A stretch of 26,942 nt of DNA. Source: a virus. Of this stretch, positions 1-25,787 are shown one piece after another (the stretch's first letter is position 1; the number at the start of each line of letters is the position of its first letter). Below the pieces are notes generated by a model. That model was not told the DNA's origin and ran no database searches. It saw only the letters and a program-made list of their open reading frames with translations. Both the position numbers and the translations under genes were made by a program. Location of the stretch: positions 1 through 26,942 of the IMG/VR virus record IMGVR_UViG_3300023245_000088; one strand, 5' to 3'.

Positions 1-21
1 AGTATGACCCCTCTTTTTTAG
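1..21 (+). CDS. possible 3' end of an upstream gene (partial)
   Basis: The frame beginning at base 1 reads a few codons and stops with TAG at 19-21, just where the ribosome-binding site of the next gene begins. In so compact an operon this is probably the tail of an upstream coding region cut by the window edge. Only six codons are visible, so nothing can be said of its product. Confidence 0.25.
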   Translation, partial: SMTPLF

Positions 22-29
22 GAGTTTTG

Positions 30-263
30 ATGGATTATAAACTAGAGAAAAGAATATGCTTATCAAAGAATTGTAACAAAACATTCAAGACCTTCCCCAA
101 CAGTCCGGCAATCTTTTGCCAAAAAAACTGTCAATATGTCAACGGGAACAAAAAGAAATCACACCAAGAAATAAAAGAGTTCCATGGAAAATTTGTAAGA
201 GCTGCACTTAAAAAAAACCAAGGAGTAGGTTATGGCAAGAGGAACATCTGCACAGGCTTATAA
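30..263 (+). CDS. small zinc-ribbon-like protein
   Basis: This is a 77-residue basic protein. Four cysteines (C10, C15, C30, C34) form a CX4C-X14-CX3C pattern ending in FCQKNC, which resembles small zinc-ribbon proteins that phages often carry; no specific function is recognised. The ATG at 30 is chosen over the TTG at 27 because TAGGAG at 19-24 gives a spacing of 5 bases to the ATG and only 2 to the TTG. The C-terminal half is rich in Lys, which fits nucleic-acid binding, but this is inference. Its last 32 bases overlap the next gene, whose ribosome-binding site lies inside it, so the two are probably translated together. Confidence 0.65.
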   Translation: MDYKLEKRICLSKNCNKTFKTFPNSPAIFCQKNCQYVNGNKKKSHQEIKEFHGKFVRAALKKNQGVGYGKRNICTGL

Positions 264-489
264 TTCAATTCTTCCAAGTCTGGGAGATAAACAAAAAGAA
301 GTTCTGAGAGTAATTAGAAATCACAAAAGAGGGATCTCACTGTTTGAGCTACCCGATCAACTTGGTTGGCCGATCAATGCCATTTCTGGCAGAGTCACAG
401 AGCTATCCCAAAAGGGTCTTATCAAGGCCGATGGGACAAAGGTCAATCCCCACACTGGAAGAAAAGCGACGATCTGGCGAATAGTTTAA
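232..489 (+). CDS. small winged-helix DNA-binding protein
   Basis: This 85-residue protein is nearly all one winged helix-turn-helix domain. A first helix region (about residues 19-30, KQKEVLRVIRNH) is followed by a helix-turn-helix with LGWPINAISGRVTEL (about 44-58), then a short wing, KGLIKADGTK, and aromatic-basic residues at the end. The pattern LGWPxNxxSGRVxEL is common in small phage proteins annotated as MarR-like or helix-turn-helix proteins. The role is likely transcriptional or DNA-processing control, but the target is unknown. AGGAG at 221-225 lies 6 bases before the ATG. It overlaps the preceding zinc-ribbon gene by 32 bases, and a structured gap of about 130 bases follows before the sigma-like gene. 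Confidence 0.7.
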   Translation: MARGTSAQAYNSILPSLGDKQKEVLRVIRNHKRGISLFELPDQLGWPINAISGRVTELSQKGLIKADGTKVNPHTGRKATIWRIV

Positions 490-620
490 GGGCTTAGTAT
501 TCAATTAAAGAAATGGACAACGGCTCTCTCGTTTTTGATGAGGGGAAAGAGCCGCATCCACTAAGGTAAGTAGATAAATCTGCCTTACTCTCGACAATAG
601 TTTTGCGGGAGTATTTGAAT
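490..620 (+). promoter_or_regulatory. structured intergenic leader before the sigma-like gene
   Basis: This 131-base stretch is the largest non-coding gap in the window. It contains a perfect 7-bp stem, CGGCTCT (521-527) with AGAGCCG (548-554), with a possible inner CTC/GAG pairing. A second hairpin pairs GTAAG (566-570) with CTTAC (584-588), with AGA/TCT inside. No T-run follows the first stem, so it is not an intrinsic terminator. No convincing -35/-10 pair is visible. The gap ends with GGGAG at 607-611, 9 bases before the ATG at 621. A leader controlling expression of the sigma-like gene and the late operon is plausible but is inference. Confidence 0.4.
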
Positions 621-1406
621 ATGGCAAGTCCAAAGAAGCCAACACTTGACGAAGTGCTGGATTATGCGGAACCCAACATAAAGAATTTCATCTCAAAAGA
701 GGCCAAGGGTCTGCCTTTTGAGCAAATTGAGGAAATTCTGCAGGAAGGGTTCGTCAGAATAATAAAGGCTTATGAAGGTCTTGATCCAGAGATGGGTTGG
801 AAGGCTTTTGTATATAAACACGCCAGAGGTGCGGTTCTTGATTACTTAAAAGGTGGTCATGGATTTACTGAGGAAAGGTGGTCAATAGCAAAACCGGAAG
901 AACATAATTCACGAAACGTCAGCAAGATCCGAAGTAGATTGGGCTTGGTGAACGAAAAAGGTGAGGATATGTCCGTCGATTTTGTCCTGGGGATGAACGG
1001 CGAGTTTGATGAGTTTGTGGACAAGCTCAAAATAAACTGGGATCTGGTATCTCGGTTGGCTAGTAATGACATCGGAGTGAATGTTTTTAGTAGATACATC
1101 CAGGGGTTTTCCATTGAGGAAATATCTCACCGACTAAGGCTCTCAAGAGCTCGAATCGGTCAAATTTTGGATGAATTTATATCTCGTTTTGATGATCCTA
1201 ACTGGAATTGGAATCCACGATTTCAACAAATTTGCTTCGCTTTTGGGCTCTCTGAGCTTTTATGCTACCCACCCGATGACAATGGGAAAGGCTGGTCTTT
1301 TGTTCCAGTCAACATTTTCGACACGACACCACTCCCACCAGAGGAAGATCCACAACTAAGCTTTTTAGTTTTAATCGAGGATGGGGATGGCAAAGAAAAA
1401 GAGTAA
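621..1406 (+). CDS. sigma-70-family-like transcription factor, probable phage late sigma
   Basis: This 261-residue protein has a sigma region 2-like segment at about 35-77. There LDPEMGWKAFVYKHARGAVL parallels the DPxxxxFxxYxxxRIRGAxLDxLR stretch of sigma-70/FliA-type factors. A region 4-like helix-turn-helix lies at about 155-183 (RYIQGFSIEEISHRLRLSRA, then RIGQIL). Region 3 is not recognisable, and about 70 acidic, aromatic and Pro-rich residues follow region 4. By family knowledge such proteins direct RNA polymerase to alternative promoters. Lying directly before the terminase and overlapping it by 20 bases, it probably drives the late genes. ATG 621 has GGGAG 9 bases upstream; a TTG at 603 is less likely. 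It could instead be a sigma-derived regulator that does not recognise promoters. Confidence 0.72.
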   Translation: MASPKKPTLDEVLDYAEPNIKNFISKEAKGLPFEQIEEILQEGFVRIIKAYEGLDPEMGWKAFVYKHARGAVLDYLKGGHGFTEERWSIAKPEEHNSRNVSKIRSRLGLVNEKGEDMSVDFVLGMNGEFDEFVDKLKINWDLVSRLASNDIGVNVFSRYIQGFSIEEISHRLRLSRARIGQILDEFISRFDDPNWNWNPRFQQICFAFGLSELLCYPPDDNGKGWSFVPVNIFDTTPLPPEEDPQLSFLVLIEDGDGKEKE

Positions 1407-2076
1407 GAAGAAAGCGACAAAAAAGAAAACCAAAAAATCTGTGAAGAAGCCACAGAAAAAGGTCCTTACTCAACTTCAAGAGAACTTCTTGAGGGAATAC
1501 GTCGTTGTCCGTAATGCCACAGAAGCAGCCAAAAGAGCTGGCGTTCAAGGTAACAATCTCAAACAAAGAGGCCACCAGATTCTCCATGATCCATTGGTTC
1601 AAGAGAAACTAAAGACCTTTACCACAAGAAAATGGAACGAACGAATCGGAGCTTTTGATCGGATGTTGGATCGCCTTGAGTTCATAGCTTGTGATGATTT
1701 TGAAGAAGCTGACATCACCGATGTTGTTAAGTGGAGCAAAGATGATGTGATCTCAATGACTCTTTATGAAGACATCTCCCCACAGGCCAGGAGATCTATT
1801 AAATCGCTCAAACAGGTGATTTCTAAGAGTGGGGATATGGGAGTGGCCGTTGAAATGAAGGACACTGGTCAAGCTCTGGCGGCCATGAAAATGCTTGGAG
1901 ATTATTTAGGACTCAAAGAATACATGAAAGAAATGAAAGCAAGGGAGAAGGAAGTACATGAGAAAGCTCAATCAGGCACTCGTGAAAGAACTGAATCAAC
2001 TAGAATGGAGCGACTTCTTGATAATGCTAGACTCTACAAAGAGCGAGCAGGATCAAAAGGATCTGATAATTCATAG
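1387..2076 (+). CDS. terS: terminase small subunit
   Basis: This 229-residue protein recognises phage DNA for packaging. Residues 27-75 carry the small-terminase helix-turn-helix pattern: LTQLQENFLREY, then NATEAAKRAGV (43-53), then LHDPLVQEKL, typical of the Terminase_2-type family. Residues 3-25 are extremely basic, with 15 Lys in 23 positions, an H1-like tail not usual in the family. The C-terminal third is charged and helical, consistent with oligomerisation. GAGG at 1377-1380 is spaced 6 bases from ATG 1387; ATG 1381 abuts the ribosome-binding site and is less likely. It overlaps the sigma-like gene upstream and the large subunit downstream by 119 bases. Confidence 0.88.
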   Translation: MAKKKSKKKATKKKTKKSVKKPQKKVLTQLQENFLREYVVVRNATEAAKRAGVQGNNLKQRGHQILHDPLVQEKLKTFTTRKWNERIGAFDRMLDRLEFIACDDFEEADITDVVKWSKDDVISMTLYEDISPQARRSIKSLKQVISKSGDMGVAVEMKDTGQALAAMKMLGDYLGLKEYMKEMKAREKEVHEKAQSGTRERTESTRMERLLDNARLYKERAGSKGSDNS

Positions 2077-3616
2077 GTGCGCGGAGGATATTAGAGGCTT
2101 CGCGGTTCTCTTTTTCCCCCACTACTGCACAAGGAAGTTCAATGTTTTTCACGAAGATAGTTTTCAGAATTACAAATGGGCCGAGAAGGATGTGCGACGA
2201 GTTCGCGCTGCGCCTCGTGGAGCAGCAAAATCTACGCTCGCCTGTCTCATTAAGCCGATTCACGACGTCTGTTATGACCTGGAAAAGTTCATTGTCGTCA
2301 TATCGGCAACAACTGCGCTGGCAAATAAAAAGCTCAAGAATGTTCGGCAGGAGATACAGTTCAATCCTTTTTTGGCTGATGTTTATGGAACTTTCTTTCC
2401 AATTAAAAAGCCAGGGGCACAAGAATTTGAAGCCCATTCAGACATCTCTTCAACATACTTTGTGGCGTTGGGAAAGGGGTCTGCAGTTCGAGGAATCAGT
2501 ATCGGACAATATAGGCCAACTAAACTTGTATGCGATGACGTCGAGGACGCAAGAGAAGTTCTCAATGAAATGCTACGGCAGAAAGATAATGACTGGTTTT
2601 TTGAGGATGTTCTTAAAGCTGGTGACACTGGTACTAACGTGGATTTCGTCGGAACGGTACTTCACCCCGAATCTCTATTAAAGAAGCTCCTACAAAATCC
2701 TAGATATGATGTGATGCCAGTTTATCAATCCATTATGGAGTGGTCACAACATGAAGACCTTTGGGAGAAGTGGCGAGAGATCTACAGGGACATTGATCTC
2801 AAAGATCGAGCTGGAAAGGCAAACGCCTTCTATAAAGAAAATGAAGAGAAGATGGTCGGTGGCACTGTCGTCATGTGGCCTGAGAAAGAGTCCTATCTGG
2901 ACCTTATGATTGAGATGGAAGAAATCGGCCGACGAGCTTTTATGAAAGAGAAGCAGAATGATCCGGTTGGCGCAAATGACACAATCTTCGAGAACTTTCA
3001 TTGGTACAGAGAAGAACAAGACGGACTGCGGATCGAGAGCAATGGAGCTCTTATCCCATGGAAAAATCTTCTTTCAGTGGGGGCTATTGATCCCGCCACT
3101 GGTCAAAATGGTTCCAAAGTCCGAAAAGGTAAGCTGCCGGATTATACTTGTATTCCATTGGGCTACAAAGACCTCAAGAAGAGACTTTTTGTTCACCATG
3201 ATTTTACAAAACGGGTGTCCCCGTCGAAGGCAATAGAGGAGATTTTTAATCTTTACGACAAATATGAGTTTGAGAAATTTGCTGTAGAGACCAACTTATT
3301 CAGAAACTTGCTGCTTCCTAACATCAGGGATGAGCAGAAGCGCAGGGAGAAGAAGACAGGTAGTAGTTTTAAAATATCGTTTTATGATGTGGTTCAAACG
3401 GAAAACAAACACGAGAGGATCTATAGAATGGAGCCTAAAGTGAATCATGGCTGGATATTATTCAATAGGGCATTGAGTGCTCCTTTTAAGAATATGTTTA
3501 GAGATTTTCCTTTTGCAGATCACGATGATGCACCGGATGCCGTCGAGATACTGTGGAACTTAATTCATAACCGATACAAACCATCAGCAATGAACGTCAA
3601 TGTGATGAACAGGTAG
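1958..3616 (+). CDS. terL: terminase large subunit (packaging ATPase and nuclease)
   Basis: This 552-residue protein is the DNA-packaging motor. The Walker A-like loop is APRGAAKST (85-93). Walker B is KLVCDDVED (189-197), with adjacent Asp residues and E196 as likely catalytic carboxylate. The C-terminal RNase H-like nuclease shows its three acidic clusters: AIDPATG (D378), AVETN (E444) and DHDDAPDAV (D521-D527). This order and size are typical of terminase large subunits. ATG 1958 is preceded by AAGGA at 1948-1952, 5 bases away, and starts inside the small-subunit gene. An alternative ATG at 2024 would still leave a 53-base overlap but has a poorly spaced ribosome-binding site. Confidence 0.95.
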   Translation: MRKLNQALVKELNQLEWSDFLIMLDSTKSEQDQKDLIIHRCAEDIRGFAVLFFPHYCTRKFNVFHEDSFQNYKWAEKDVRRVRAAPRGAAKSTLACLIKPIHDVCYDLEKFIVVISATTALANKKLKNVRQEIQFNPFLADVYGTFFPIKKPGAQEFEAHSDISSTYFVALGKGSAVRGISIGQYRPTKLVCDDVEDAREVLNEMLRQKDNDWFFEDVLKAGDTGTNVDFVGTVLHPESLLKKLLQNPRYDVMPVYQSIMEWSQHEDLWEKWREIYRDIDLKDRAGKANAFYKENEEKMVGGTVVMWPEKESYLDLMIEMEEIGRRAFMKEKQNDPVGANDTIFENFHWYREEQDGLRIESNGALIPWKNLLSVGAIDPATGQNGSKVRKGKLPDYTCIPLGYKDLKKRLFVHHDFTKRVSPSKAIEEIFNLYDKYEFEKFAVETNLFRNLLLPNIRDEQKRREKKTGSSFKISFYDVVQTENKHERIYRMEPKVNHGWILFNRALSAPFKNMFRDFPFADHDDAPDAVEILWNLIHNRYKPSAMNVNVMNR

Positions 3617-3644
3617 ATTCACGAAAGACCAGTGAGGAAAATTT

Positions 3645-5129
3645 ATGTTTAATTGGGGTAATAAGAAAAAAGGTGGCTATTCACGCAGCCGATCTGGAGC
3701 AAGGCAGAGGAACAACCTTGGTATCATTGGGCTTCCTAATGACAAGAAAAAGCTGAAGTTCAGAGATGAAAAGCTGGAGCTCCTTGATTCCTATTATGAA
3801 AATACTCAATACGATCATTTAATGGATTGGGAACAAGATTGCTATGCTGACAACACTCACATTCCTATAAGAAAGCGATGTCCTAGAATTAAAATGCCTA
3901 TTGCTAAGATGATGGCCTCAAGGCTTACATCTATGCTTATTGGTGGGGATGCTTTTCCTGATTTAAGAATTGACGATATGCCAGACGAGCAAGAGTTCAT
4001 CAAGGCTGTGGTCAGAGAATCTCGTATAAAATACAGAATCCTAGAGCCATTTAAAAGAATGATAAATTGTGGATCAGCTTTTGTTCGCTTCTACATATCT
4101 GGTGGAACAATGAAAATGGAGCACTTCAGCTCTAAATACTGTTACCCCACTTTTGATGAATCAGATCAACTTGAAAACGTGGTCATAAAATATGTCTTTG
4201 AAGATCCTGACGAGACAGACAATGACGGTAACTACCAAAAGAAGTGGTTTAAGATGGAGCTCACCAAAATGAGTGAAATCATTTATGACACTCCCAATTT
4301 CGATCCAGACTCTACAGATGAGCCTGAGTTCACCGTTGTTGAGCAAGTGGACCATGAACTTGGATTCGTCCAGGGAACTTGGTTCAGGACCTCTGAGGAT
4401 CGTCATAGCATCGATGGTTATTCAATGATTGCTGACTGTTTGGATTTCATTGACGAGATGTGCTACTCGCTATCTCAATCCTCCACAGCGGTTCAATACA
4501 ACCAAGATCCACAGCTTGCTTTCAACTCCATGGATGAAGATGAAATGGAGAAAGTAATAAGATCAGCAGCTAAATCTTGGAATCTTGGAAGAGAGGGAAA
4601 AGCCGAGTTCTTGGAATCCAACCTCTCTGGTGTTGAAAAAGCTATAGAGCTTCGAGACAAGTTCCGTCAGAACATTCAGGATGTAATGAGAATCCTATTG
4701 ATGGACCCTGAGAAAATGGTGGGGAACGCTCAATCTGCTAAAGCTATGGAGGTTCTTCATGGCCCTATGGTGGATCTTGTTCGTGAGATTCGTGGGGTTA
4801 TTGAACCACAACTCAAAGAGCTCTTAATCAAAATGGAAGTGGCAATCCTCAGAGCTAATGAACAGGGAATGGATATTCCTTTCGATATGCCCCCAGGTTG
4901 GCAGCCCGAAACAATAATATTCAGTATTAAGTGGAAACCAATATTTCCGGAGACAATAGAAGATCAACAAAAAAGAGTGAGTCTTGTCATAAGTGCAAAG
5001 ACTGGCGGGTTCCTTTCTCGTGAAACTGCTCTTAAGAATGTTGCTGATATTTTCGGAGTGGAAGACATCGAACTCGAAATGAAGATGGTTGACGATGATC
5101 CAGTGACTAATCCATTCGGAGGATTTTAG
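3645..5129 (+). CDS. portal protein
   Basis: This 494-residue protein lies directly after the large terminase and has the size expected of a portal, the dodecameric ring at the capsid vertex through which DNA is packaged. Residues about 77-103 (KRCPRIKMPIAKMMASRLTS, then MLIGG) resemble the conserved early segment of phage portals, and the middle alternates helical and beta-rich stretches. A helical region around GVEKAIELRDKFRQNIQDVM followed by MRILLMDPEKM and the sequence QSAKAMEVLHGP fits the stem and wing of portals. The first 30 residues are basic and low-complexity. GAGGA at 3634-3638 lies 6 bases before the ATG. Its TAG stop overlaps the GTG of the next gene by one base. Assignment rests on position and motifs together. 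Confidence 0.8.
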   Translation: MFNWGNKKKGGYSRSRSGARQRNNLGIIGLPNDKKKLKFRDEKLELLDSYYENTQYDHLMDWEQDCYADNTHIPIRKRCPRIKMPIAKMMASRLTSMLIGGDAFPDLRIDDMPDEQEFIKAVVRESRIKYRILEPFKRMINCGSAFVRFYISGGTMKMEHFSSKYCYPTFDESDQLENVVIKYVFEDPDETDNDGNYQKKWFKMELTKMSEIIYDTPNFDPDSTDEPEFTVVEQVDHELGFVQGTWFRTSEDRHSIDGYSMIADCLDFIDEMCYSLSQSSTAVQYNQDPQLAFNSMDEDEMEKVIRSAAKSWNLGREGKAEFLESNLSGVEKAIELRDKFRQNIQDVMRILLMDPEKMVGNAQSAKAMEVLHGPMVDLVREIRGVIEPQLKELLIKMEVAILRANEQGMDIPFDMPPGWQPETIIFSIKWKPIFPETIEDQQKRVSLVISAKTGGFLSRETALKNVADIFGVEDIELEMKMVDDDPVTNPFGGF

Positions 5130-5665
5130 TGGCTAAAAAGAAGGATGAAAATAAGCGCGTAATATTTCGACGGATCGGTGGTCGTTTAGTTCCTATTACT
5201 GTGGCCGCTGGTGTTGGTATTGAGGCTTCGAGAAGAAGAACGCTTTCTAATCGTGGGAATCTAAAAATAACAGAGAGAAGATCCATCCTTAGTTCTACAA
5301 CAACTATAAGAGCTAAGAAAAAGGTCAATGGTTTATTCAGAACAAATGTTGGTATTGCTACATTCTCAAAATCAACAAAAGGAAGAGCAAATATCAATTT
5401 ATTTGCTTCCTCTGATAAGAAATCAACAGCCAGTTTATTTGTGGCTATGAATAAGAGTGCTAAGAGGCAGGGCTTTAAAACATTCACTGCACTTCTAGCA
5501 AACCCATCATTGCCAAAAGTTTTTAAGGCAAGGGGCGGGAAATTAATTTCAACATCTAAAAGCGGTAAAAAATTAATCGGTGCAAAAGCTGCGTCTGGTG
5601 AAATAACTCGTTTTTTAAATAAAGCTGGAAGAGCTGGAATAATGGCATTGATGAGGGTGAGATAA
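5129..5665 (+). CDS. basic head-region protein with FRRIxGRxVPI box, member A
   Basis: This 178-residue, very basic protein has no recognised function. The N-terminus is Lys-rich, then residues 12-23 read IFRRIGGRLVPI, a box shared with the next gene (VFRRIRGRIVPI) and with the protein at 10362 (KFIRKNGRIIPI). The rest is rich in Ser, Thr, Lys and Ala, without an obvious enzyme motif. It starts at GTG 5129, overlapping the portal stop by one base; GGAGGA at 5118-5123 is a strong ribosome-binding site 5 bases upstream, which decides the start. Its position between portal and MuF-like protein suggests a capsid-internal or ejected DNA-binding protein. This is inference from basicity and context; a role in assembly is equally possible. 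Confidence 0.7.
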   Translation: MAKKKDENKRVIFRRIGGRLVPITVAAGVGIEASRRRTLSNRGNLKITERRSILSSTTTIRAKKKVNGLFRTNVGIATFSKSTKGRANINLFASSDKKSTASLFVAMNKSAKRQGFKTFTALLANPSLPKVFKARGGKLISTSKSGKKLIGAKAASGEITRFLNKAGRAGIMALMRVR

Positions 5666-6264
5666 TGGAAAAGAAAAAACAGGTTGTCTTCAGAAGAATC
5701 AGAGGTCGCATTGTTCCCATTAAGTTGTCAAAAGCTCAAAGAGCTCGACTCAATGAGGGTTCTGCCGGAGCTGGAATAATGGCTGGTGGAGCTGCGGTTG
5801 GTATTGGTGCAGGAGCATCTATAACCAAAGCTGAAAGATTCCTAAATCGAAAGTCTGCCAGAAATGTTAGAGCTTCAAAGCTTTTCAAATCATACAAATC
5901 AAATCACAGACAGATGTCTTTCTTTGGTCATAGTAAAACTACAAAGGCCAATCTCCTTCTTAATAAATCGAGAAAGAAAGTCAGACTTGGTAAATCATTG
6001 GTTCCTCCTGTTAAGAAATTCGGCAAAGGTACTGCAGCTTTCTTGGTTGGTTATGGAGCTTCCAAGGTGGTGAGAGCTACTCATGGAAACAAAAATGAGA
6101 CTGTCGATGCGGTAGTGGGGGCCACTATTGGTTCTGCTGCCTATAATCCTAGAGGGACTTCAGAATTTCTTTACAAGTTGGGTGGCAATCCTAAGAAAAC
6201 AGGTAAAGCCGCATGGAGAACAGCCAAAGCAATCATAAGGTTAAAAACTAAAATCAAACTATGA
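5665..6264 (+). CDS. basic head-region protein with FRRIxGRxVPI box and Gly/Ala-rich segment, member B
   Basis: This 199-residue protein shares the N-terminal box with its neighbour (VFRRIRGRIVPI, residues 8-19). Unlike member A, it has a Gly/Ala-rich hydrophobic segment at 32-53, including AGIMAGGAAVGIGAGAS, and further small-residue hydrophobic stretches near FLVGYGASKVV and VVGATIGSAAY. Between them are long Lys/Arg-rich linkers. Such a pattern of glycine-rich, membrane-compatible segments plus high basicity is seen in some virion proteins that cross membranes during DNA ejection. The function here is unproven. ATG 5665 overlaps the TAA of the upstream gene, with GAGGGTG in front; the stop overlaps the next ATG (ATGA). 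It may be a distant duplicate of member A. Confidence 0.7.
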   Translation: MEKKKQVVFRRIRGRIVPIKLSKAQRARLNEGSAGAGIMAGGAAVGIGAGASITKAERFLNRKSARNVRASKLFKSYKSNHRQMSFFGHSKTTKANLLLNKSRKKVRLGKSLVPPVKKFGKGTAAFLVGYGASKVVRATHGNKNETVDAVVGATIGSAAYNPRGTSEFLYKLGGNPKKTGKAAWRTAKAIIRLKTKIKL

Positions 6265-7091
6265 GCTTTTTCGAGAATAATAAAGTGGAGACTCTTGCAC
6301 AGTCTCAAGCCGAGGAAGTGCAGGAGCTCAATAAACGAGAAGTAAAAAAGATGATGGTTCTATATAAGAGAGTCCGTCTTGAACTTATTGATCGTCTCAA
6401 TTCAATGCCAAAGGGAACTTTCACAGCTCAGAGAATGAGATCGTCTTTAATTCAAATTGATGCTGCTTTGCTGGAAATGCAGAGAGTTCTCGGAAAAGGT
6501 ATTCAAGAAAGCTCCATGATTCTTGGTGAGAGATCATCTGAGGATCTAATCAAAGAGCTCAACACTTTTGACAAAGAGTTCACTGGAGCTGTTACCCCAC
6601 TCAATCTGGATTCAGCAGTGGTTGCCTCTAAGACTTCCAACTTCCTCTTTGAGAGACACCAGTCGAGTCTCACAGCTTACAGCAAAGCTTTAAGACAGGA
6701 CTTTGCCATGGAGCTCTCAGAAGCTGTTTTAATTGGTAAATCTAATTATGAAGTAGTGGGAGAGTTGGCTCAAAAGTTTAAAGGTGAACAGTGGAAGCTG
6801 GAAAGAATAGCCAGAACAGAGCTCCACAATGTCTACAACATAGCAAAAATGGAAAATATGAAAGAGGTCAGGGATTCTGGAGATATGCCGGATCTGATGA
6901 AAACTCTCTTTCATCCAATGGATTTAAGAACTGCCAAAGATTCAAAGAAGCTTAATCGAGAGAATCCAAAGATTCCTATTGATAAGCCTTTTAAATTTAA
7001 GTGGGGAGATCAGGAGAGGGTATTTATGGCCCCACCAGATAGGCCAAACGATAGAGCTATCTTGCTTCCCTACCGCAAGGACTGGAAATAA
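6261..7091 (+). CDS. MuF-like (SPP1 gp7-like) minor head protein
   Basis: This 276-residue protein has the C-terminal signature of the phage Mu F / SPP1 gp7 head morphogenesis family. RIARTELHNVYNIAKMENM lies near residues 183-200, and VFMAPPDRPNDRAILLPYR sits close to the C-terminus. These proteins bind the portal and are incorporated in the head in few copies, affecting DNA ejection. The N-terminal two-thirds is helical and charged. It starts with an ATGA overlap (6261-6264) on the upstream basic protein, and the 51 bases after it lead to the scaffold gene. No polymorphic toxin domain is fused after the MuF domain; the protein ends right after it. Confidence 0.82.
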   Translation: MSFFENNKVETLAQSQAEEVQELNKREVKKMMVLYKRVRLELIDRLNSMPKGTFTAQRMRSSLIQIDAALLEMQRVLGKGIQESSMILGERSSEDLIKELNTFDKEFTGAVTPLNLDSAVVASKTSNFLFERHQSSLTAYSKALRQDFAMELSEAVLIGKSNYEVVGELAQKFKGEQWKLERIARTELHNVYNIAKMENMKEVRDSGDMPDLMKTLFHPMDLRTAKDSKKLNRENPKIPIDKPFKFKWGDQERVFMAPPDRPNDRAILLPYRKDWK

Positions 7092-7142
7092 ATCGGCATG
7101 AGTCGATATGTAGAAACTAACAACTAACGGGAGGAGACTCGT

Positions 7143-7883
7143 ATGTCAGGAACAAACGATGACGACAAAAATAAGAACGATGCTGGCGCTGGCGCTGGTG
7201 GCGAAGGTGGAGCTGCTGATAAAGGTGGTGAAGCTGGAGGAGATAAAGGTGGAGAACTTAATCCGAATCCAAACCCTAACCCTGGTGGCGACGGTGGAGA
7301 AGGAACTGAGTTTGATTATACCGATCCTGTAAAGGTCGAGAAAGAACTCAAAAAACTCCGCAAGGAAAATGCCTCCCGTAGAGTATCTGGCAAGGACGCT
7401 AACGAGAAGTTAGCTGCAATGGAAGAGACTCAAAGAAAGTTAAAGATCGCTTTGGGAATTGAAGAAGAAGAAGATCCAGCCGAACAAGTGGAAACTCTTA
7501 GATCTCAAAATGAAGCTTTACAAATGGAAATACAGCTCAACTCGATTGCGAGTGATTTGGAAATTCCTGCAAAGAATCAAAAATACTTTAAGTTTTTGAT
7601 TCACGACAAACTGAGTGAAATGGAAGAAGGCGAGGAGCTTTCCGACGATGATCTTGAAAAAATCGCGCAGGAAGTAAAGGGAATGGGTGGCGCAGCTCCT
7701 GGTTCAACTGGTGTGAACAGTGGCGGTCAAGGTGGTGGCGGTAAAGCCCCAGCTAAAGGTGGAGATATGACTGTGGAACAGTTTGCTAAAATGTCTCTGA
7801 CTGAAAAATCATCCCTCTACACAAAGAATCCAAAAGAGTATGAGCGATTATTTTCATCAGCAAAAGAAAAAGGATTAGTTTAA
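7143..7883 (+). CDS. capsid scaffolding protein
   Basis: This 246-residue, acidic protein lies immediately before the major capsid gene, as scaffolds do. It has a low-complexity Gly/Ala/Asp N-terminus with an NPNPNPNP stretch (about 41-48). A charged coiled-coil core (about 62-125) includes KVEKELKKLRKEN and AEQVETLRSQNEALQMEIQL. A Gly-rich linker follows, then a short C-terminal segment (about 209-246, MTVEQFAKMSLTEKSSLY), likely the capsid-binding end. Scaffolds of this type guide procapsid assembly and are then lost. GGGAGGAG at 7129-7136 is a strong ribosome-binding site 6 bases before the ATG. No separate prohead protease is seen nearby, so release without proteolysis is likely (inference). 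Confidence 0.85.
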   Translation: MSGTNDDDKNKNDAGAGAGGEGGAADKGGEAGGDKGGELNPNPNPNPGGDGGEGTEFDYTDPVKVEKELKKLRKENASRRVSGKDANEKLAAMEETQRKLKIALGIEEEEDPAEQVETLRSQNEALQMEIQLNSIASDLEIPAKNQKYFKFLIHDKLSEMEEGEELSDDDLEKIAQEVKGMGGAAPGSTGVNSGGQGGGGKAPAKGGDMTVEQFAKMSLTEKSSLYTKNPKEYERLFSSAKEKGLV

Positions 7884-7897
7884 CTAAGGAGAATTAA

Positions 7898-8803
7898 ATG
7901 AGTGCAACTCAAGCAAGTGATGTGGCCTTCGTGCCAAAGGTGTGGTCCGACCATATTAATGCCTATTATGACAGAAAAATGGGATTAGGTTCGTTGGCCG
8001 TTATGGATAAAACTCTTCAATCAGAGCCAGGGGAAACTGCAAACTTTCCTTATTTCAAGACTATCGGTGCAGCTCAAGAGCCTGCAGAAGATGAAGGTCT
8101 GGAAGTCGAAGCTCTCCAAGACGATGCGTTCAGCGTAACCGTCAAAGAGATCGGGAAAGCTGTTGGTTGGAAAGACAAATCAAGACGCAAGTCTTCAGCG
8201 AACAAAAAGGGAATCAGACCTAATGGTATTCAAGAAGGTGAAGCTCAACGTCAAATCTCGCGTGTATTCGCTGAGAAAGTTGATGCTGATATTATTACAG
8301 AGATTAATAGTGTCGGAAATTACTCCGCTGGTTATGTGGCTACTTCTTCAACTCACACTTGTACTGTGCAGAAGATTTTACAGTCTAAGATTACCGCTTT
8401 CGGTGACAAGCAAAGTGATGCCTTGGCAATCGCAATGCACTCTCAGGATTTCTTATCCATGATGACGGACACTACTACTGGCTTTCTAAAAGCTGATGCT
8501 AATGATCCTTTTTATGGTCGTCCTGGTTTCGAGGGTCGTTTACTTGGAATGGCGTTGTTCACTTTGGACACTATGCCTTCGGTCACTATTGATTCGACTG
8601 CAGCCCATTACCATTTCATATTCAAAGCCAACCCTTTTGGGATTTATATGGCTGAAGATATGGACCCAGAAATGGATCGTGACATTCTCCATCGTGAGAC
8701 AATCTTGGCAGCCACTATGTGGTACGGAGTGCTTGCACTTCATGGCAAGGTAGCAACCGATGATAAGAGAATTGCTCGTGGAGCTTTCTGCGTATCAGCT
8801 TAA
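7898..8803 (+). CDS. major capsid protein, N4-gp56-like family
   Basis: This 301-residue protein follows the scaffold. It resembles the N4-gp56 family of HK97-fold capsid proteins: an N-terminal VWSDHINAYYDRKMGLGSLA (about 13-32), a Gly-rich strand with GETANFPYFKTIG (about 46-58), the KEIGKAVGWKDKSRR segment in the middle (about 87-101) and a C-terminal stretch with DRDILHRETILAATMWYGV. About 300 residues is a usual size for the family. AAGGAG at 7886-7891 is an optimal ribosome-binding site 6 bases before the ATG, as expected for the most abundant virion protein. An intrinsic terminator follows within 10 bases, allowing higher expression of the genes up to this point. Confidence 0.88.
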   Translation: MSATQASDVAFVPKVWSDHINAYYDRKMGLGSLAVMDKTLQSEPGETANFPYFKTIGAAQEPAEDEGLEVEALQDDAFSVTVKEIGKAVGWKDKSRRKSSANKKGIRPNGIQEGEAQRQISRVFAEKVDADIITEINSVGNYSAGYVATSSTHTCTVQKILQSKITAFGDKQSDALAIAMHSQDFLSMMTDTTTGFLKADANDPFYGRPGFEGRLLGMALFTLDTMPSVTIDSTAAHYHFIFKANPFGIYMAEDMDPEMDRDILHRETILAATMWYGVLALHGKVATDDKRIARGAFCVSA

Positions 8804-8806
8804 TTT

Positions 8807-8843
8807 GAGTGGGGGCTCACAAGCTCCCTCTCTTCGCTTTTTT
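8807..8843 (+). terminator. intrinsic terminator after the capsid gene
   Basis: A hairpin pairs GGGGGCT (8811-8817) with AGCTCCC (8822-8828), with one G-T pair and a CACA loop. It is extended by GAG/CTC across a T-T mismatch. A run of six T lies at 8838-8843, five bases beyond the stem, so the terminator is probably partial and lets some transcription continue to the decoration gene. Confidence 0.6.
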
Positions 8844-8868
8844 GTTTAATATTTAGATAGGAGATTTT

Positions 8869-9255
8869 ATGTCTTTAAGTAATGAAAGCAATCCGCAGGT
8901 TGCTGTAATCCCTTTAGGTTCTCTGGCAACAGATGACGTTCAGGTTCCTGCAATTCACTTCCGAAAGGCAGTGAAAATTTTAAGTGTGAAGCTTGTCAAT
9001 GGTGCTGCCATTACTGCTTCTGATACTAACTTTGTTCAAGTTGGCCTTCAGCACGTTGGCGGCAACGTCATAGCTGAGATTGACACTCGTGCAGCCCATG
9101 AAAATGCGCTTGTTAAGAATGTTGGTAAGGCTTTAAACGTGAGCGCGGTTGAGGATGATGTTGCTGCTGGGTCTAACCTAGAAGTGGATTATCAAGAAGG
9201 TGGAACTATTGCCCTTACGAGCGCAGTTCTATTAATCGAATACTTTAACAAGTAA
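8869..9255 (+). CDS. probable capsid decoration (minor head) protein
   Basis: This 128-residue protein is rich in beta-prone Val, Ile and Ala stretches, with no Cys or enzyme motif. It lies directly after the major capsid gene, the usual place for head decoration or stabilisation proteins. The sequence runs through KAVKILSVKLVNGAAIT and FVQVGLQHVGGNVIAEIDTR and ends in LTSAVLLIEYFNK, suggesting a small beta-sandwich. Family assignment cannot be made by eye; the role is inferred from size and position. ATAGGAG lies 5 bases before the ATG. The gene is isolated between two intrinsic terminators, which would set its dosage separately from the capsid gene and the connectors. Confidence 0.6.
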   Translation: MSLSNESNPQVAVIPLGSLATDDVQVPAIHFRKAVKILSVKLVNGAAITASDTNFVQVGLQHVGGNVIAEIDTRAAHENALVKNVGKALNVSAVEDDVAAGSNLEVDYQEGGTIALTSAVLLIEYFNK

Positions 9256-9258
9256 TCC

Positions 9259-9284
9259 AAAGCGGGGTTAATTCCCCGCTTTTT
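9259..9284 (+). terminator. strong intrinsic terminator
   Basis: AGCGGGG (9261-9267) pairs perfectly with CCCCGCT (9274-9280) around a TTAATT loop, flanked by AAA on the left and a TTTTT run on the right (9280-9284). This is a textbook rho-independent terminator just after the decoration gene. The A-run/T-run symmetry may allow some bidirectional function, but no minus-strand gene is present. Confidence 0.85.
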
Positions 9285-9300
9285 AAAATGGGAGGTTCCT

Positions 9301-9573
9301 ATGGGAGCAACAATGTCGAGAAGACGAATGAAAGATAAGAAGAATAAAAAAGCAAAGACTATGAAAAAAGTCGCTGCTGAAGTAACAAAACCAACGACTA
9401 TGAAAAAAGTCGCTGCTGAAGTAACAAAACCAACGAAGAAGAAGACCAGTAAAAAGGCTCCTGCTTCAAAGAAGAAAACAACCAAGAAGGCTGCTACTTC
9501 TAAAAAGAAAACCACTAAGAAAGTCAGTGGGGTTCCTCCGAAAGAAGAAACCAAAACGACTGAGTACAAATAA
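9301..9573 (+). CDS. histone H1-like Lys-rich protein
   Basis: This 90-residue protein is one-third lysine (30 of 90), with repeated KKT, KKA and SKKKTTKK motifs and no hydrophobic core, resembling the C-terminal tail of histone H1 and bacterial H1-like proteins. Residues 20-45 contain two exact copies of a 13-residue unit, TMKKVAAEVTKPT, encoded by a perfect 39-bp tandem duplication (9357-9395 and 9396-9434). It is probably disordered and binds DNA by charge. Whether it is packaged in the head or acts in the host is not known. ATG 9301 has GGGAGG 5 bases upstream and follows a strong terminator, so a promoter close to it, or read-through, is needed. Confidence 0.72.
   Translation: MGATMSRRRMKDKKNKKAKTMKKVAAEVTKPTTMKKVAAEVTKPTKKKTSKKAPASKKKTTKKAATSKKKTTKKVSGVPPKEETKTTEYK
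9357..9435 (+). repeat. 39-bp perfect tandem duplication
   Basis: Bases 9357-9395 are repeated exactly at 9396-9434, with the match extending a base or two beyond. The unit is 13 codons, so it preserves the frame of the H1-like gene. Perfect identity at third positions points to a recent duplication. Confidence 0.95.
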
Positions 9574-9589
9574 GCCTTAAGGGGGAATG

Positions 9590-9943
9590 ATGGCTTTTTC
9601 TGAAACAGAAAAGGTGAAGATCCTAAGATATATAGGATGGCCGCCAACAACAATAGTTAGCACTTCCCTTGATTATTCCAAGATTGTATCTGATCGCCTT
9701 ACAAACGCCAGCACTCCCACACAGGGAATCGTGAGAGAACTGTTGGACCGAATTGAGAACCTTGACGAGAAACTCGACAAGGCTATCTGCAGGGCGGGTG
9801 TGAAGCAAATTGATGACATCACTTTAAGAGATAATGAGATCGACATTCTCAGGAAGGAACGTCGAAAGATTTTCCGAGAAATCGCTCTGCTTGTTAATAT
9901 TAAAATGATGGGTAGTGGAATGATGGGAGCTGTCTGCGTATGA
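9590..9943 (+). CDS. probable head-tail connector protein
   Basis: This 117-residue protein has a short N-terminal segment, EKVKILRYIGWPP, then LDYSKIVSDRLTN, and a long charged coiled-coil-like region: GIVRELLDRIENLDEKLDKA, then LRDNEIDILRKERRKIFREI. The C-terminus is Met/Gly-rich. Proteins of this form commonly follow capsid genes in phages and are annotated as head-tail connectors or head completion proteins; that comparison is from general knowledge, not a search. ATG 9590 is preferred over ATG 9587 because AGGGGG at 9580-9585 would leave only one base before the latter. Its stop overlaps the next ATG (ATGA). Confidence 0.55.
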   Translation: MAFSETEKVKILRYIGWPPTTIVSTSLDYSKIVSDRLTNASTPTQGIVRELLDRIENLDEKLDKAICRAGVKQIDDITLRDNEIDILRKERRKIFREIALLVNIKMMGSGMMGAVCV

Positions 9944-10359
9944 GTGGAATAGTTGATGATCTAAAAGGTTGCTCTGACGATATTCTTGGAATCCGAGATG
10001 ACATTGGTGCAGCTAAACAGAAGGTCTTTTTTGTAGAACGTCGTTGGTCTGGCACAGAGCTGGGTGATGGATCTTATCAAGACAAGCCAAAGGATCGGAT
10101 GCTTCCTTCCCCACGAGTCGTGGAGTTCAAACATCAGCTTGGCATCAGAGAGGGTGGAGCCGTTAAGCAAGGGGATATTCTCTTGAAGATGGTTTCTAAA
10201 AACATATATCCAGACAAAGCCGATCTGGAGTTTGCTGGATTAGATAAGAACGTCGAAAAGTTTTATGAGATTGGTGAACGATTGTACCGACCTATTGCGA
10301 TTACTGAGAAGCATCTTACTTGGTTGATTCTTTGTCGTCCAGTATCAGGACAGAGGTAA
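9940..10359 (+). CDS. probable head-tail joining (head closure) protein
   Basis: This 139-residue protein sits in the connector segment. After an N-terminal helix (about 1-28), the rest is beta-rich, including SPRVVEFKHQLGIREGGAVK, then QGDILLKMVSKN, and ends with LTWLILCRPVSGQR. A small beta-barrel protein here is expected to close the portal and join the tail, as head closure proteins do; no specific family is certain. It begins in an ATGA overlap with the upstream connector gene, which implies coupled translation, and ends three bases before the ATG of the third FRRI-type protein. It could instead be a stopper-like protein. Confidence 0.5.
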   Translation: MSGIVDDLKGCSDDILGIRDDIGAAKQKVFFVERRWSGTELGDGSYQDKPKDRMLPSPRVVEFKHQLGIREGGAVKQGDILLKMVSKNIYPDKADLEFAGLDKNVEKFYEIGERLYRPIAITEKHLTWLILCRPVSGQR

Positions 10360-10361
10360 TA

Positions 10362-10871
10362 ATGAAAAAGAAAATGAAACCCAAAGCTGGATCAAAGGGA
10401 ACAGTAAAATTCATCAGGAAGAATGGTCGAATCATTCCAATCACTGTTAAATCCAGTAAGAACTCAACCGCTATTAAAAAAGGTAAATCCATCAAGATCG
10501 AAAAGAATAGTGATATTGATAGGGCCGATAAAAACTATAAAAGCAAAAGAGGAAAAGCTACCGCAGCCGGTGGAGCAGTAGCTGGTGGGGCCGCACTAAG
10601 ACACGTTAGTCATGGAACTAAGGGAACTCTCAAGAAATCGAAAGCTGGAAAGAGACTCAAATACTTAGGGAAGATGGCTAAAACATCAAGAGGAAAAAGT
10701 GGACTAATATTCGCCGGAGCCGCTGCTGTTGGTGGAGCTGCTCTTGGAAGAATGTTTGGATCTCAATATGCCAAAGCTTCTGAAGGAGCAAAACTAGAAA
10801 AGAAATATGGGAAAAAACCAACCATAGCCACAATAAAAAAAGCATCAAAAGCAAATAAAACAGGACTCTAA
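10362..10871 (+). CDS. basic protein with FxRxxGRIIPI box and Gly/Ala-rich segments, member C
   Basis: This 169-residue, highly basic protein is the third member of the group at 5129 and 5665. Its box, KFIRKNGRIIPI, lies at 16-27 after a Lys-rich start. Two Gly/Ala-rich hydrophobic segments follow, at 66-79 (ATAAGGAVAGGAAL) and 114-129 (GLIFAGAAAVGGAALG), separated by Lys-rich linkers. The second segment could span or insert in a membrane. Function unknown; the pattern suits a virion protein that is packaged with DNA and interacts with membranes at ejection (inference). ATG 10362 is chosen because GAGG lies 5-6 bases upstream; an in-frame upstream start at 10320 would lie inside the preceding gene. 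Confidence 0.68.
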   Translation: MKKKMKPKAGSKGTVKFIRKNGRIIPITVKSSKNSTAIKKGKSIKIEKNSDIDRADKNYKSKRGKATAAGGAVAGGAALRHVSHGTKGTLKKSKAGKRLKYLGKMAKTSRGKSGLIFAGAAAVGGAALGRMFGSQYAKASEGAKLEKKYGKKPTIATIKKASKANKTGL

Positions 10872-10880
10872 GGGGGAACT

Positions 10881-11039
10881 ATGAATAAAAAAGTAGGTGG
10901 AAAAAAGGCGTTGAACAACTTGGAAATAGTTAGTCATCCACAAAACAACAATGCTGGAAGTGCCAGAAATGGAAAGGCTCGTCCTTGTAATCCAGGCCAC
11001 AAGCCAAAGGATTCAACGGCGGCGGTCCCTGGTAAATAA
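10881..11039 (+). CDS. 52-residue hypothetical protein
   Basis: A short open frame fills the gap between two genes exactly. The ATG at 10881 is 4 bases after AGGGGG (10871-10876), and its TAA at 11037-11039 overlaps the next ATG by one base, the coupling seen throughout this operon. The product is basic and polar, with Asn-rich (HPQNNNAGSARNG) and Pro/Gly stretches (RPCNPGHKPKDS) and a single Cys. It has no hydrophobic core and is probably disordered. I do not recognise it. Translation is likely because of the strong ribosome-binding site and exact packing. Confidence 0.65.
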   Translation: MNKKVGGKKALNNLEIVSHPQNNNAGSARNGKARPCNPGHKPKDSTAAVPGK

Positions 11040-11503
11040 TGAGTACAAAGACGGTTCGACTTGAAGACTTTGCCAAAACCCTAGAGGTGGATGGAAAGCA
11101 GAGACAGGAAGATTTCAGGAAAGCGGTTGTTCGTGGAACTATGAGATCCATTCCTCAACTTGTGGAGAAATCCCCTGTCGATACCGGATTATATGCTGCC
11201 TCGTGGAGATTCGAGGAAAAAGAGTGGGGAGCTATTATTGGAAACTTTGCTCCCCATGCTGCAATCATAGAGGACGGAGCTCGGCCATTCACGCCACCAA
11301 TGGGACCTCTACTTGCCTGGGCGAAAAGGGTTTTAAAAGATCCTAGCACCCCACCTAACTACTCAAGTGCAGTCTGGGGTCTTGCCAAAGGAACTCAGTT
11401 AAAAATTCAAAAGTATGGGATGAAACCAAAGCACATTCTGCAGAATCACATCCCAGAGATTTTGGAGAACATTAAAATGGAATACGAGAGGCTTGTAAAA
11501 TGA
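11039..11503 (+). CDS. HK97 gp10-like head-tail / tail completion protein
   Basis: This 154-residue protein contains the core seen in the HK97 gp10 family of tail completion proteins: SPVDTGLYAASWRF (about 45-58), GAIIGNFAPHAAIIEDGARP (about 63-82), then FTPPMGPLLAWAKR. Members join the tail tube end to the connector. The N-terminal helix and the C-terminal helix ending LENIKMEYERLVK complete a usual length. Its ATG overlaps the TAA of the 52-residue gene and its own stop overlaps the next gene (ATGA at 11500-11503). This protein and the next one together mark the switch from head to tail genes. Confidence 0.8.
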   Translation: MSTKTVRLEDFAKTLEVDGKQRQEDFRKAVVRGTMRSIPQLVEKSPVDTGLYAASWRFEEKEWGAIIGNFAPHAAIIEDGARPFTPPMGPLLAWAKRVLKDPSTPPNYSSAVWGLAKGTQLKIQKYGMKPKHILQNHIPEILENIKMEYERLVK

Positions 11504-12111
11504 GCGATGAAAGAGCTGTGAACGCAGTACAGAAAGCCATTATTAAGCATCTGGAGGATGAGTTTCCAGGTATTGAATCCGTTATTGATGGTTTTCCGAA
11601 TCCTAATGAAGAACTAGAATATCCAGCCGCATCTGTAATGATGAAAGATCCGATCATGGATCTGGCGATTAATGAATACACCATATCAAAATCCTCGGTC
11701 ACAGCACCAACAACAGGACAAACAGGAACTAAGTCCAAGATCTTGAGGGTTTATGGTGAATACACTTTAGAAATGCAAATAGATTTGTGGGCTAAGTATA
11801 AGCCTCAACTAAGAACTCTTATGGAAGATTTCGCTCGACTATTTAATCCCTCGATTGGAAGGACAGGGATCTCTGTGCAACTCGAAGAGTATCACGAGGA
11901 ATATGTCACCTTTACTTTAGAAAGGTTTAGGATTGTTGAGGGAGATGCTGAATCTCAAAGAAATGAGTGGAGAGCAGTGGCTACTGTTTCGGCTGGATGT
12001 CGAGCGATTAAGGAGCACCTAGAATATCTCATGCACACAGTCGAGAACAATATAGAAACACCAGATGAAATCGAAGGCGAGGATGACCCAAGCTATTTCG
12101 GTATTATCTAA
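11500..12111 (+). CDS. probable tail terminator protein
   Basis: This 203-residue protein lies between the gp10-like protein and the sheath, the standard place of the tail terminator that caps the tube and stops tail growth. Sequence features fit: an N-terminal helix (VQKAIIKHLEDEFP), a beta core with YGEYTLEMQIDLWAKYKPQL (about 86-105), a helix RTLMEDFARLFNP, and further strands. The C-terminal tail (about 185-203) is acidic, with DEIEGEDDPSYFG. Assignment is from order and general similarity. It begins in an ATGA overlap and is followed by AAGGAG for the sheath gene. Confidence 0.62.
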   Translation: MSDERAVNAVQKAIIKHLEDEFPGIESVIDGFPNPNEELEYPAASVMMKDPIMDLAINEYTISKSSVTAPTTGQTGTKSKILRVYGEYTLEMQIDLWAKYKPQLRTLMEDFARLFNPSIGRTGISVQLEEYHEEYVTFTLERFRIVEGDAESQRNEWRAVATVSAGCRAIKEHLEYLMHTVENNIETPDEIEGEDDPSYFGII

Positions 12112-24452: not shown

Positions 24453-25787
24453 ATGGGCAATGTTGTAAGAAAAATTTTTAGACATAGTGATTTGGTAGCA
24501 AATACCCCATGGAGAGCCCCTGGTGGTGTGAGATCAGTTCGAGTCATTGGGTTTAGAAACCGAAGACCCATTGATGCTGGCGATCACGTTCTTTTCTCAG
24601 AGTCTTCCAACATTATTGCATGGGGAAGAAATGTAAATGGACAAGTTGGTGATGATTCCAGCGTAACTCCATATTCAAGTCCTGTGATTGTTGTCGGAGA
24701 TGTATTCAACAGAAGCATTGTTGATGTCTCTGCTTCTCTTGATAGTGATGGAGCAAATGGTACTTCAATGGCTCTTACTTTTGGTGGACAGATTTACGCT
24801 TGGGGACTGAACGATCATGGTCAGCTTGGTCTTGGGGATGTAACAGCCAGATCTAGTGCGACTCTTATTAGTTATGATAAAAAATTCATTGCGGTTCAAT
24901 CAAACCAATCTTCTTACGCTATTGATGACAAAGGGGATATGTACGCTTGGGGATTAAATACCAGTGGTCAACTTGGCGTCAACGATACTACTCCAAGATC
25001 AACTCCCACTCTTGTAAATGGTGGAATTAAATGGACTCAAGTCTCAGCAGTTTATGGGTCATCAGTTCATGCTATTGATGAAAAAGGACATCTGTGGGGT
25101 TGGGGATTAAATGCCAGTGGTCAACTTGGTGATGGAACAAATACCAGCCGATCAGTTCCTAAATTAATTGATGGATCTAAACCTTATAAGCAGGTAATCA
25201 GTGGAGCCTTTCATCACATGGCGCTAGATTTTAGTGGAAATGTCTATTGCTGGTCTGATAATACTTTTGGTCAAATGGGAGATGGAACTCAAGTGACTAA
25301 ATCAGTCCCCACCCTTGTACTTGGTGGACATAATTTTATTCAAGTGGCTTCTGGTCAGGGTTGTAAAGTTGGAATGACTACCTCTGGAGCTCTTTATTGG
25401 TGGGGTCGAGGGACTTATGCTTTTGGTGGAATAACTGGTACAGATTATTCTTCTCCAGTATTAGTCGATAGTGCTTTAAGTGATTTTAGCTTTTCAACAG
25501 CAATGAAACTTTATGCTGGAACTAGAACAATGTTTGTTGTTGATAATAACTGGGATGTTTATTCCTGGGGAGCTTCAGCTCATGGTGAGCTTGGTTCTGG
25601 AAATGCACCAGTAGAATTTGCAAGTAGTCCGGTGGCTGTTGTTGGTCCACAAAGATCATTCAACTCTTTCACCTTGGCACTAAGATCAACAATTATTGAT
25701 GTAAAAGGTGGATACTTATACCGACCAAAAGACTTTTTCGATATGGTTGGTCCATGCGAATATGTTGCCCTAGAATACGAATCATAA
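24453..25787 (+). CDS. RCC1-repeat beta-propeller protein, probable fibre or receptor-binding protein
   Basis: This 444-residue protein is built of RCC1-type repeats. Seven units can be counted: AWGRNVNGQVGD, AWGLNDHGQLGL, AWGLNTSGQLGV, GWGLNASGQLGD, CWSDNTFGQMGD, a degenerate WWGRGTYAFGG and SWGASAHGELGS, each with a following SxPxLV-type strand. Seven units are what a complete propeller needs. About 45 N-terminal residues (MGNVVRKIFRHSDLVANTPW) may attach it to the baseplate. RCC1 domains mediate protein or membrane contacts; in this place, after two fibre genes, ligand or receptor binding is likely (inference). Repeats 3 and 4 share 29 bases with one mismatch, implying recent expansion. 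GGAG precedes the ATG. Confidence 0.82.
   Translation: MGNVVRKIFRHSDLVANTPWRAPGGVRSVRVIGFRNRRPIDAGDHVLFSESSNIIAWGRNVNGQVGDDSSVTPYSSPVIVVGDVFNRSIVDVSASLDSDGANGTSMALTFGGQIYAWGLNDHGQLGLGDVTARSSATLISYDKKFIAVQSNQSSYAIDDKGDMYAWGLNTSGQLGVNDTTPRSTPTLVNGGIKWTQVSAVYGSSVHAIDEKGHLWGWGLNASGQLGDGTNTSRSVPKLIDGSKPYKQVISGAFHHMALDFSGNVYCWSDNTFGQMGDGTQVTKSVPTLVLGGHNFIQVASGQGCKVGMTTSGALYWWGRGTYAFGGITGTDYSSPVLVDSALSDFSFSTAMKLYAGTRTMFVVDNNWDVYSWGASAHGELGSGNAPVEFASSPVAVVGPQRSFNSFTLALRSTIIDVKGGYLYRPKDFFDMVGPCEYVALEYES

Follow-up and report, generated by a model that had tools for sequence, protein, structure and literature searches.

The internal proteins of phage T4 and the DarB protein of phage P1 are established examples of proteins with short N-terminal capsid targeting sequences (PMC3012670, PMC5694885, PMC9024508), and the T4 protein Alt is an ADP-ribosyltransferase (PMC3012670, PMC5694885, PMC5512222). 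Injection has also been predicted for the polyvalent early-phase effectors of phages and conjugative elements (Iyer et al. 2017; PMC5512222), and a MuF polymorphic toxin family has been described (PMC5576092). We analyzed a stretch of 26,942 nucleotides from an uncultured phage (IMG/VR virus record IMGVR_UViG_3300023245_000088, 26.9 kb, termed the window in the following), in which three head-region genes, starting at positions 5129, 5665 and 10362, encode proteins with a common short box near their N-termini. This box recurs across about 60 contigs of related uncultured phages, with up to nine boxes per phage. It is probably a sorting tag in the form of a terminal beta-hairpin, by which late proteins with otherwise unrelated bodies are loaded into the head, from where they would be injected together with the DNA.

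The box core F[RI]RxxGRxxPI is in frame in all three window proteins, and a degenerate DNA pattern for this core has exactly three matches in the window, while none occurred in 100 dinucleotide-preserving shuffles. An earlier note on the same DNA, which had pointed out the shared box, is thereby borne out, and the trend is wider than it claimed; its location of the box was right, apart from a trivial start one residue ahead of the phenylalanine of the core. BLASTP matches among the three proteins are confined to residues 6-26 versus 2-22 (E 3e-5) and 11-25 versus 15-29 (E 0.007), and no significant mutual similarity was detected by BLASTP beyond the box, in agreement with the divergence that had been described. 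It likewise holds that two of the proteins, those encoded at 5665 and 10362, have long Gly/Ala segments, and that the genes occupy separate positions of the head region, two of them between the portal and MuF-like genes and one between a connector gene and neck1. The window contains terminases, portal, two box genes, a MuF-like gene, scaffold, capsid, connector genes, the third box gene, neck1 and then a contractile-tail module, and the relevant features are as follows.

2081..3616, + strand, within an open reading frame (ORF) at 1958-3616: large terminase (TerL; PHROG 38, E 7e-78), upstream border of the TerL-portal slot (slot 1)
3645..5129, + strand: portal protein (PHROG 64, E 7.5e-25), border of slots 1 and 2
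5129..5665, + strand: putative tagged cargo protein 1, 178 amino acids, GTG start; N-terminal tag and GNAT-fold body with degenerate acetyl-CoA loop
5165..5197, + strand: tag core FRRIGGRLVPI of protein 1 (residues 13-23), left joint of a natural cassette swap
5205..5682, + strand: exchanged cassette, the DNA between the two tags (about 789 unrelated bases instead in the related contigs L003 and L002)
5665..6264, + strand: putative tagged cargo protein 2, 199 amino acids; N-terminal tag and long Gly/Ala-rich helices, single-copy family
5689..5721, + strand: tag core FRRIRGRIVPI of protein 2 (residues 9-19), right joint of the natural cassette swap
6261..7091, + strand: stand-alone MuF-like minor head protein, 276 amino acids (PHROG minor head/head morphogenesis families, E 1e-5 and weaker; Pfam Phage_Mu_F E 2e-4, under the Pfam cut-off), border of slot 2
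7143..7883, + strand: scaffolding protein (PHROG 172/233, E 2e-5), candidate tag receptor
7898..8803, + strand: major capsid protein (PHROG 544, E 1e-22), clade marker for the tree and candidate tag receptor
9940..10359, + strand: connector-region protein (by synteny), upstream border of slot 3
10362..10871, + strand: putative tagged cargo protein 3, 169 amino acids; N-terminal tag, Lys-rich linkers and two Gly/Ala segments, in the connector-neck1 slot
10410..10442, + strand: tag core FIRKNGRIIPI of protein 3 (residues 17-27 from the ATG at 10362)
11039..11503, + strand: neck1/tail completion protein (PHROG 5, E 2e-9), downstream border of slot 3

Over all contigs, the box comprises 14 residues with the consensus [VI]xF[IR]R[IKV][NRG]GR[IV][IV]PI[KR], and not only basic residues but also F, G, P and I are invariant in it. 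A profile hidden Markov model (HMM), built from 144 distinct box peptides, found about 200 strong boxes and none with 8 bits or more in reversed sequences. Among 180 non-redundant boxes, 153 are positioned at most 25 amino acids from the N-terminus and 26 at most 20 amino acids from the C-terminus (median three residues before the stop), and a single one is not terminal, while a uniform placement would make about 34% of them terminal. Four proteins carry boxes at both ends. The gene order is constant over the approximately 60 contigs, and all 242 boxes that were placed against the core genes are encoded on the strand of the structural genes and in the head region, namely 125 in the portal-MuF slot, 52 in the connector-neck1 slot, 15 in the TerL-portal slot, 48 at contig edges beside these genes and 2 between capsid and connector; in this set, no tagged gene was found in the tail module and no box outside the head region. 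Random placement or occurrence beyond phage head regions, by which the earlier note had expected its idea to fail, thus was not what the profile search revealed. Genes with the box at the C-terminus often have a gene with an N-terminal box as their direct downstream neighbor, with about 59-83 bases between the boxes across the gene border (843/920 in L081, 1859/1918 in L085, 5295/5360 in L050, 2816/2893 in L084, 6193/6276 in L026, and others), and a family of about 171-179 amino acids has the box near both ends, the C-terminal copy following a Q-x-FDNxG motif (L098:9421-9933, the L077:5049-5445 region, L094 27264-27663 of G002).

This distribution could also be explained if the tag docked proteins at the portal, the neck or the tail side, or recruited them to the site of assembly, without any entry into the capsid, and indeed two of the three slots border the portal gene, and the third one borders neck1. 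However, the tail module is devoid of tagged genes, and the bodies include enzyme types of injected head cargo and very basic proteins (median isoelectric point (pI) 11.2) rather than obvious connector folds, and such a docking function therefore appears unlikely, albeit the least unlikely of the alternatives.

As a collection via the box would be biased, contigs were also fetched via the capsid profile alone. Among these new contigs, the box is present in 17 of the 21 covered portal-MuF slots, and 13 of the 14 contigs that cover both slots have at least one box; as to the exceptions, the box of L150 is just under the threshold, and L145 and L174 bear another tag. Contig L009, a relative via its capsid protein, has eight or nine boxes. 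At the DNA level, a pattern for FxRxNGR[IV][IV]PI was found in 43 IMG/VR stretches, at least 40 of which are genes with terminal boxes, and a second pattern, FRR[IV][RSG]GR, in 36 stretches. In 257 gigabases of bacterial and archaeal genomes, the exact pattern matched 14 times and never in a box-like gene, although degenerate boxes could escape such a search, and about 13 matches are expected there by chance according to our own estimate for an even base composition. A tblastn search of INPHARED with the 5665 protein and two box peptides gave no tagged protein, short peptides being below the sensitivity of that search. The box matches no described PHROG or Pfam family; PHROG 11169 matches the 5665 protein weakly, and only in its box portion.

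What kind of proteins carry the tag? Their single-domain bodies have a median length of 171 amino acids. An early clustering, which merged most bodies via Ala/Gly/Lys-rich sequence, was set aside for a stricter one with 131 clusters from 176 bodies, many of which were joined by later profile searches to the family of the 5665 protein. With the box removed, the HMM of this body has 62 members on 61 contigs, which is nearly one per phage, and 57 of the 62 have a strong box. The bodies are only about 20-30% identical to the window protein and the most conserved columns of the family are those of the box: its G and P are the only invariant columns, while its F, R and I, together with a single glycine in the body, are nearly so. 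In the AlphaFold2 model of the 5665 protein, residues 7-20 form the hairpin (predicted local distance difference test score (pLDDT) about 86-97, residues 11-20 about 97), followed by long helices. No Pfam match was obtained for its body, and a Foldseek search of the PDB with the model gave no convincing relative (best E 0.45); the Gly/Ala-rich helices suggest that the protein is possibly part of a membrane conduit.

The 5129 protein, whose family consists of four members that are all tagged, was modeled with a pLDDT of 81, with the hairpin strands 13-16 and 19-22 at low confidence. All top Foldseek matches of this model are GNAT proteins (E 1e-4), and VIA-align 2 gave 858 chains at Z≥5 (best Z 10.9, root mean square deviation 2.6, 111 residues). 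As the acetyl-CoA loop RxxGxG/A that relatives keep is missing (SDKKSTASL versus KKFRKQGLA, REFRGEGLS and KSERGKGIS), an acetyltransferase activity is doubtful, and we assign the protein to the GNAT fold only. Homologues of the body of the 10362 protein were found only in near-identical contigs. Elsewhere in the clade, tagged proteins have ART-PolyVal domains (L050, E 2.6e-14; L116, E 2.9e-11) or GNAT domains (L050, L146) above the Pfam cut-off, and several small families contain an HExxH motif, which makes them probable metallopeptidases, with a weak library match (Tox-MPTase4, E 0.0026). Kinases in L072 and L086, seen by eye from motifs without support by PDB sequences or Pfam, and an ADP-ribosyltransferase in L075, likewise without Pfam support, were dropped. 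The earlier note had considered that the bodies might be DNA-binding or membrane-active ejection proteins, and this fits the helical, Gly/Ala-rich 5665 protein, which could be an ejection protein, but neither the GNAT fold of the 5129 protein nor the ADP-ribosyltransferases and probable metallopeptidases among the related tagged bodies. The putative cargo falls into two classes: the helical, Gly/Ala-rich protein of the 5665 type, which is near-universal, and variable effectors such as GNAT-fold proteins, ADP-ribosyltransferases and probable metallopeptidases.

The tagged proteins are so basic (99% have a pI above 9.5) that the box might be regarded as a DNA-binding hairpin, and the proteins would then enter the head bound to the genome as it is packaged. 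The box and the bodies are rich in Arg and Lys, and the hairpin is amphipathic, which would agree with this idea, but the invariant F, G, P and I are better compatible with a specific docking site on a protein, and a general DNA binder would be useful for genes outside the head region as well, where the box does not occur. We therefore consider DNA binding by the box as improbable. An AT-hook was also considered for the box and rejected, as the consensus lacks the RGRP core.

The contigs indicate in several ways that tag and cargo are modular. In a family of GNAT-like bodies, the tag is N-terminal in L086, L088, L143, L026, G010 and L031 but C-terminal in L161, L049, L146 and L050 (E 3e-41 and 4e-36 against the profile of the N-terminally tagged proteins). 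The box could also be viewed as a propeptide or processing site, with cleavage taking place as the head matures, in analogy to the T4 targeting sequences that are removed by the gp21 protease. This is highly improbable here, as many tags are C-terminal and end 1-5 residues ahead of the stop codon, and as no prohead protease of the S78, S49 or ClpP type was found above the cut-off in 13 records (the S77 search was done without positive control); a removal of the tag is accordingly unlikely.

In addition, bodies have been exchanged with the tag being kept. L003 matches the window with 99.7% identity over positions 16-5204 and with 99.6% over 5683-11716, but between the boxes of the genes 5129 and 5665 their DNA is unrelated (478 versus about 789 bases). 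At the left joint, the identity continues through the first box up to position 5204 with few differences in the box, and at the right joint it returns inside the second box near 5710, with mosaic box DNA at both joints. L002 has the allele of L003, and L006 that of the window. As judged from these alignments, cargo genes are naturally exchanged between near-identical phages with joints in the tag DNA, and this DNA can serve as a joint because the tag is conserved and placed at gene ends. One could argue from such joints that the box has no function in the protein and persists only as short DNA homology for gene shuffling. This view is hardly tenable and already contradicted by the data, since the amino acids are conserved whereas the similarity of synonymous codons does not exceed the level given by codon usage: within genomes, the codon match at box residues is 0.400, in comparison to 0.397 predicted. 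Boxes therefore appear to be maintained by selection on the peptide and not by recent copying. A particular resemblance among the boxes of one genome, which had been expected, was hardly seen (identity 0.709 versus 0.693, permutation standard deviation 0.009), and the idea was dropped.

Finally, a tag seems to have been replaced while the body was kept. Box-tagged homologues of a metallopeptidase-like body of L145 are encoded in G004, G005 and L071 (E 2e-17 to 4e-11), but the L145 protein starts with GSRGGKIIGYFKTGRPIY in place of the box, and the same is true for the 5665-type proteins of L145 and L174. As L145 and L174 form a supported pair that is nested within the box clade in the capsid tree, one lineage appears to have changed the tags on more than one protein.

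The motif that stands in for the box in this nested lineage, GEGSRGGKIIGHTKSGKPIY (frames starting at 1748 and 4104 in L145 and at 4208 in L174), was seen again in dozens of further contigs from uncultured phages (L207-L275), often several times per protein or genome, at N-terminal and internal positions, and has the appearance of a second tag or module of this type. One protein with this motif (L211:2-2755, 918 amino acids) has NUDIX and mCpol domains above the Pfam cut-off and a sub-threshold match to S-adenosylmethionine lyase, and it looks like a counter-defence protein. In L249, three proteins among tail-like genes (694-1308, 1312-1869, 6787-7413 on the minus strand) have a common N-terminal stretch like RILSMYSNADEIL, followed by a GHTKSGKPIY motif, and a TnpB-like transposase ORF was recognized by eye at 4438-5625.

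As the box is terminal in 179 of 180 cases, restricted to head-cargo slots and switched between protein ends, and as bodies are swapped with the tag kept and the tag is swapped with the body kept, its role as a sorting signal is strongly supported. The earlier note, in proposing a common sorting signal like that of the T4 internal proteins, was in this respect on the right track, whereas the procapsid interior as the destination is what we infer. The best fit would be that the proteins are loaded into the head and delivered along with the DNA, since enzymes of injected types beside the portal gene share the terminal peptide with a small helical Gly/Ala-rich protein. In such a mechanism, the terminal hairpin would direct the otherwise unrelated late proteins into the head during assembly. 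A receptor of the procapsid, with the scaffold, MuF, portal or capsid protein as candidates, would recognize the hairpin irrespective of the cargo end that carries it, and the tagged cargo would later leave the head together with the DNA, to become active in the next host cell.

Several points weigh against this mechanism. The case for cargo packaging comes from the gene sequences of uncultured phages, and some slot proteins have no recognizable tag, although several of them have weak boxes just under the threshold. The argument from tag replacement depends on two contigs of one lineage, and in that lineage neither scaffold nor MuF stands out as a binding partner after correction for the distance of the capsid proteins. 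The scaffold as the receptor was considered because it had the lowest score among the core proteins in the two contigs with the other tag, and was dropped as the signal was gone after the same correction.

Injected proteins are mostly unknown, as they diverge too fast for recognition, and a conserved tag makes candidates findable from sequence alone. Any small tag-bearing gene would be a candidate cargo, including undescribed takeover or counter-defence enzymes. The tag moreover offers a direct route, via the receptor of one hairpin, to the question of how heads load protein, and cargo exchange is caught here between near-identical phages. Should the tag work at either end of a reporter fusion, phage particles could be loaded with protein by a simple signal.

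With regard to the remaining genes of the window, the components of the tail module (sheath, tube, tape measure, baseplate) were named by PHROG matches and gene order, with the sheath, which has no PHROG match, being named by its size, position and a reading of its sequence. A Lys/Ala-rich protein of 90 amino acids with KKxxKK repeats is encoded 3' of the capsid genes (9301-9573) and by eye resembles histone H1, with no family match in PHROG or Pfam. At the end of the tail module, a protein of 444 amino acids (24453-25787) has RCC1-like repeats by eye (WGLNxxGQLGxGD) and is perhaps a tail fibre or decoration protein, and the neighboring protein of 320 amino acids (25812-26774), without PHROG match, by eye resembles heptosyltransferase-type glycosyltransferases (HPGxxWxxKxFP...SNDSSPIHIAAA).

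How does this tag relate to the described systems? Capsid targeting sequences as such are already known. Our literature search, in which subscription journals were thinly covered, brought up only those of T4, P1 and giant phages and no paper with this motif; a clade-wide hairpin at either end of many small effectors, doubling as an exchange joint, was not found in the literature searched. As in T4, where the proteins are packaged and injected, a short terminal peptide is common to otherwise diverse proteins (PMC3012670, PMC5694885, PMC5512222), and a short shared N-terminal peptide on unrelated bodies, as is typical of T4, is seen in 153 of the 180 boxes, the other terminal ones being the 26 at C-termini. 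However, the T4 sequence is N-terminal and cut by gp21, whereas the tag described here can be at either end, is a predicted beta-hairpin and occurs clade-wide, and no prohead protease of the S78, S49 or ClpP type was detected in the 13 records searched. In P1 DarB, it is also an N-terminal stretch that sends the protein to the head, and a reporter joined to its first 30 residues is taken into the capsid (PMC9024508), but DarB is one very large protein for which this was shown by experiment, while here many small proteins share the tag, and their packaging is predicted. ADP-ribosyltransferase, GNAT and metallopeptidase domains beside portal and terminase genes are shared with the polyvalent effectors, although the metallopeptidase only weakly so (PMC5512222); those effectors combine several domains in one polypeptide, whereas each effector is separate, small and tagged in the window clade. 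MuF toxins (PMC5576092) likewise deliver toxin domains via a head protein encoded beside the portal, but they are fused to MuF, while the MuF-like protein of the window clade stands alone (276 amino acids) with the effectors in separate tagged ORFs. In Microbacterium phage TurboVicky, a relative via its capsid protein, a long ORF between portal and scaffold is annotated as VIP2-like ADP-ribosyltransferase, and no box was found in its head-tail region. The window clade may thus have separated such effectors and provided them with a tag. In encapsulins, short terminal peptides load unrelated enzymes into a shell that is related to the HK97 capsid. Encapsulins, however, are bacterial compartments without DNA or injection. 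In the most far-reaching reading, the tag would be a clade-wide, position-independent, uncleaved hairpin label for virion cargo, placed on separately encoded effectors in lieu of their fusion to MuF or to one another, with the tag DNA being used as a joint for the natural exchange of cargo genes. Other hairpin tags such as GEGSRGGKIIGHTKSGKPIY would have this role in other phages, and short cargo tags would then represent a general layer of head assembly; the chances of this reading as a whole appear about balanced to us.

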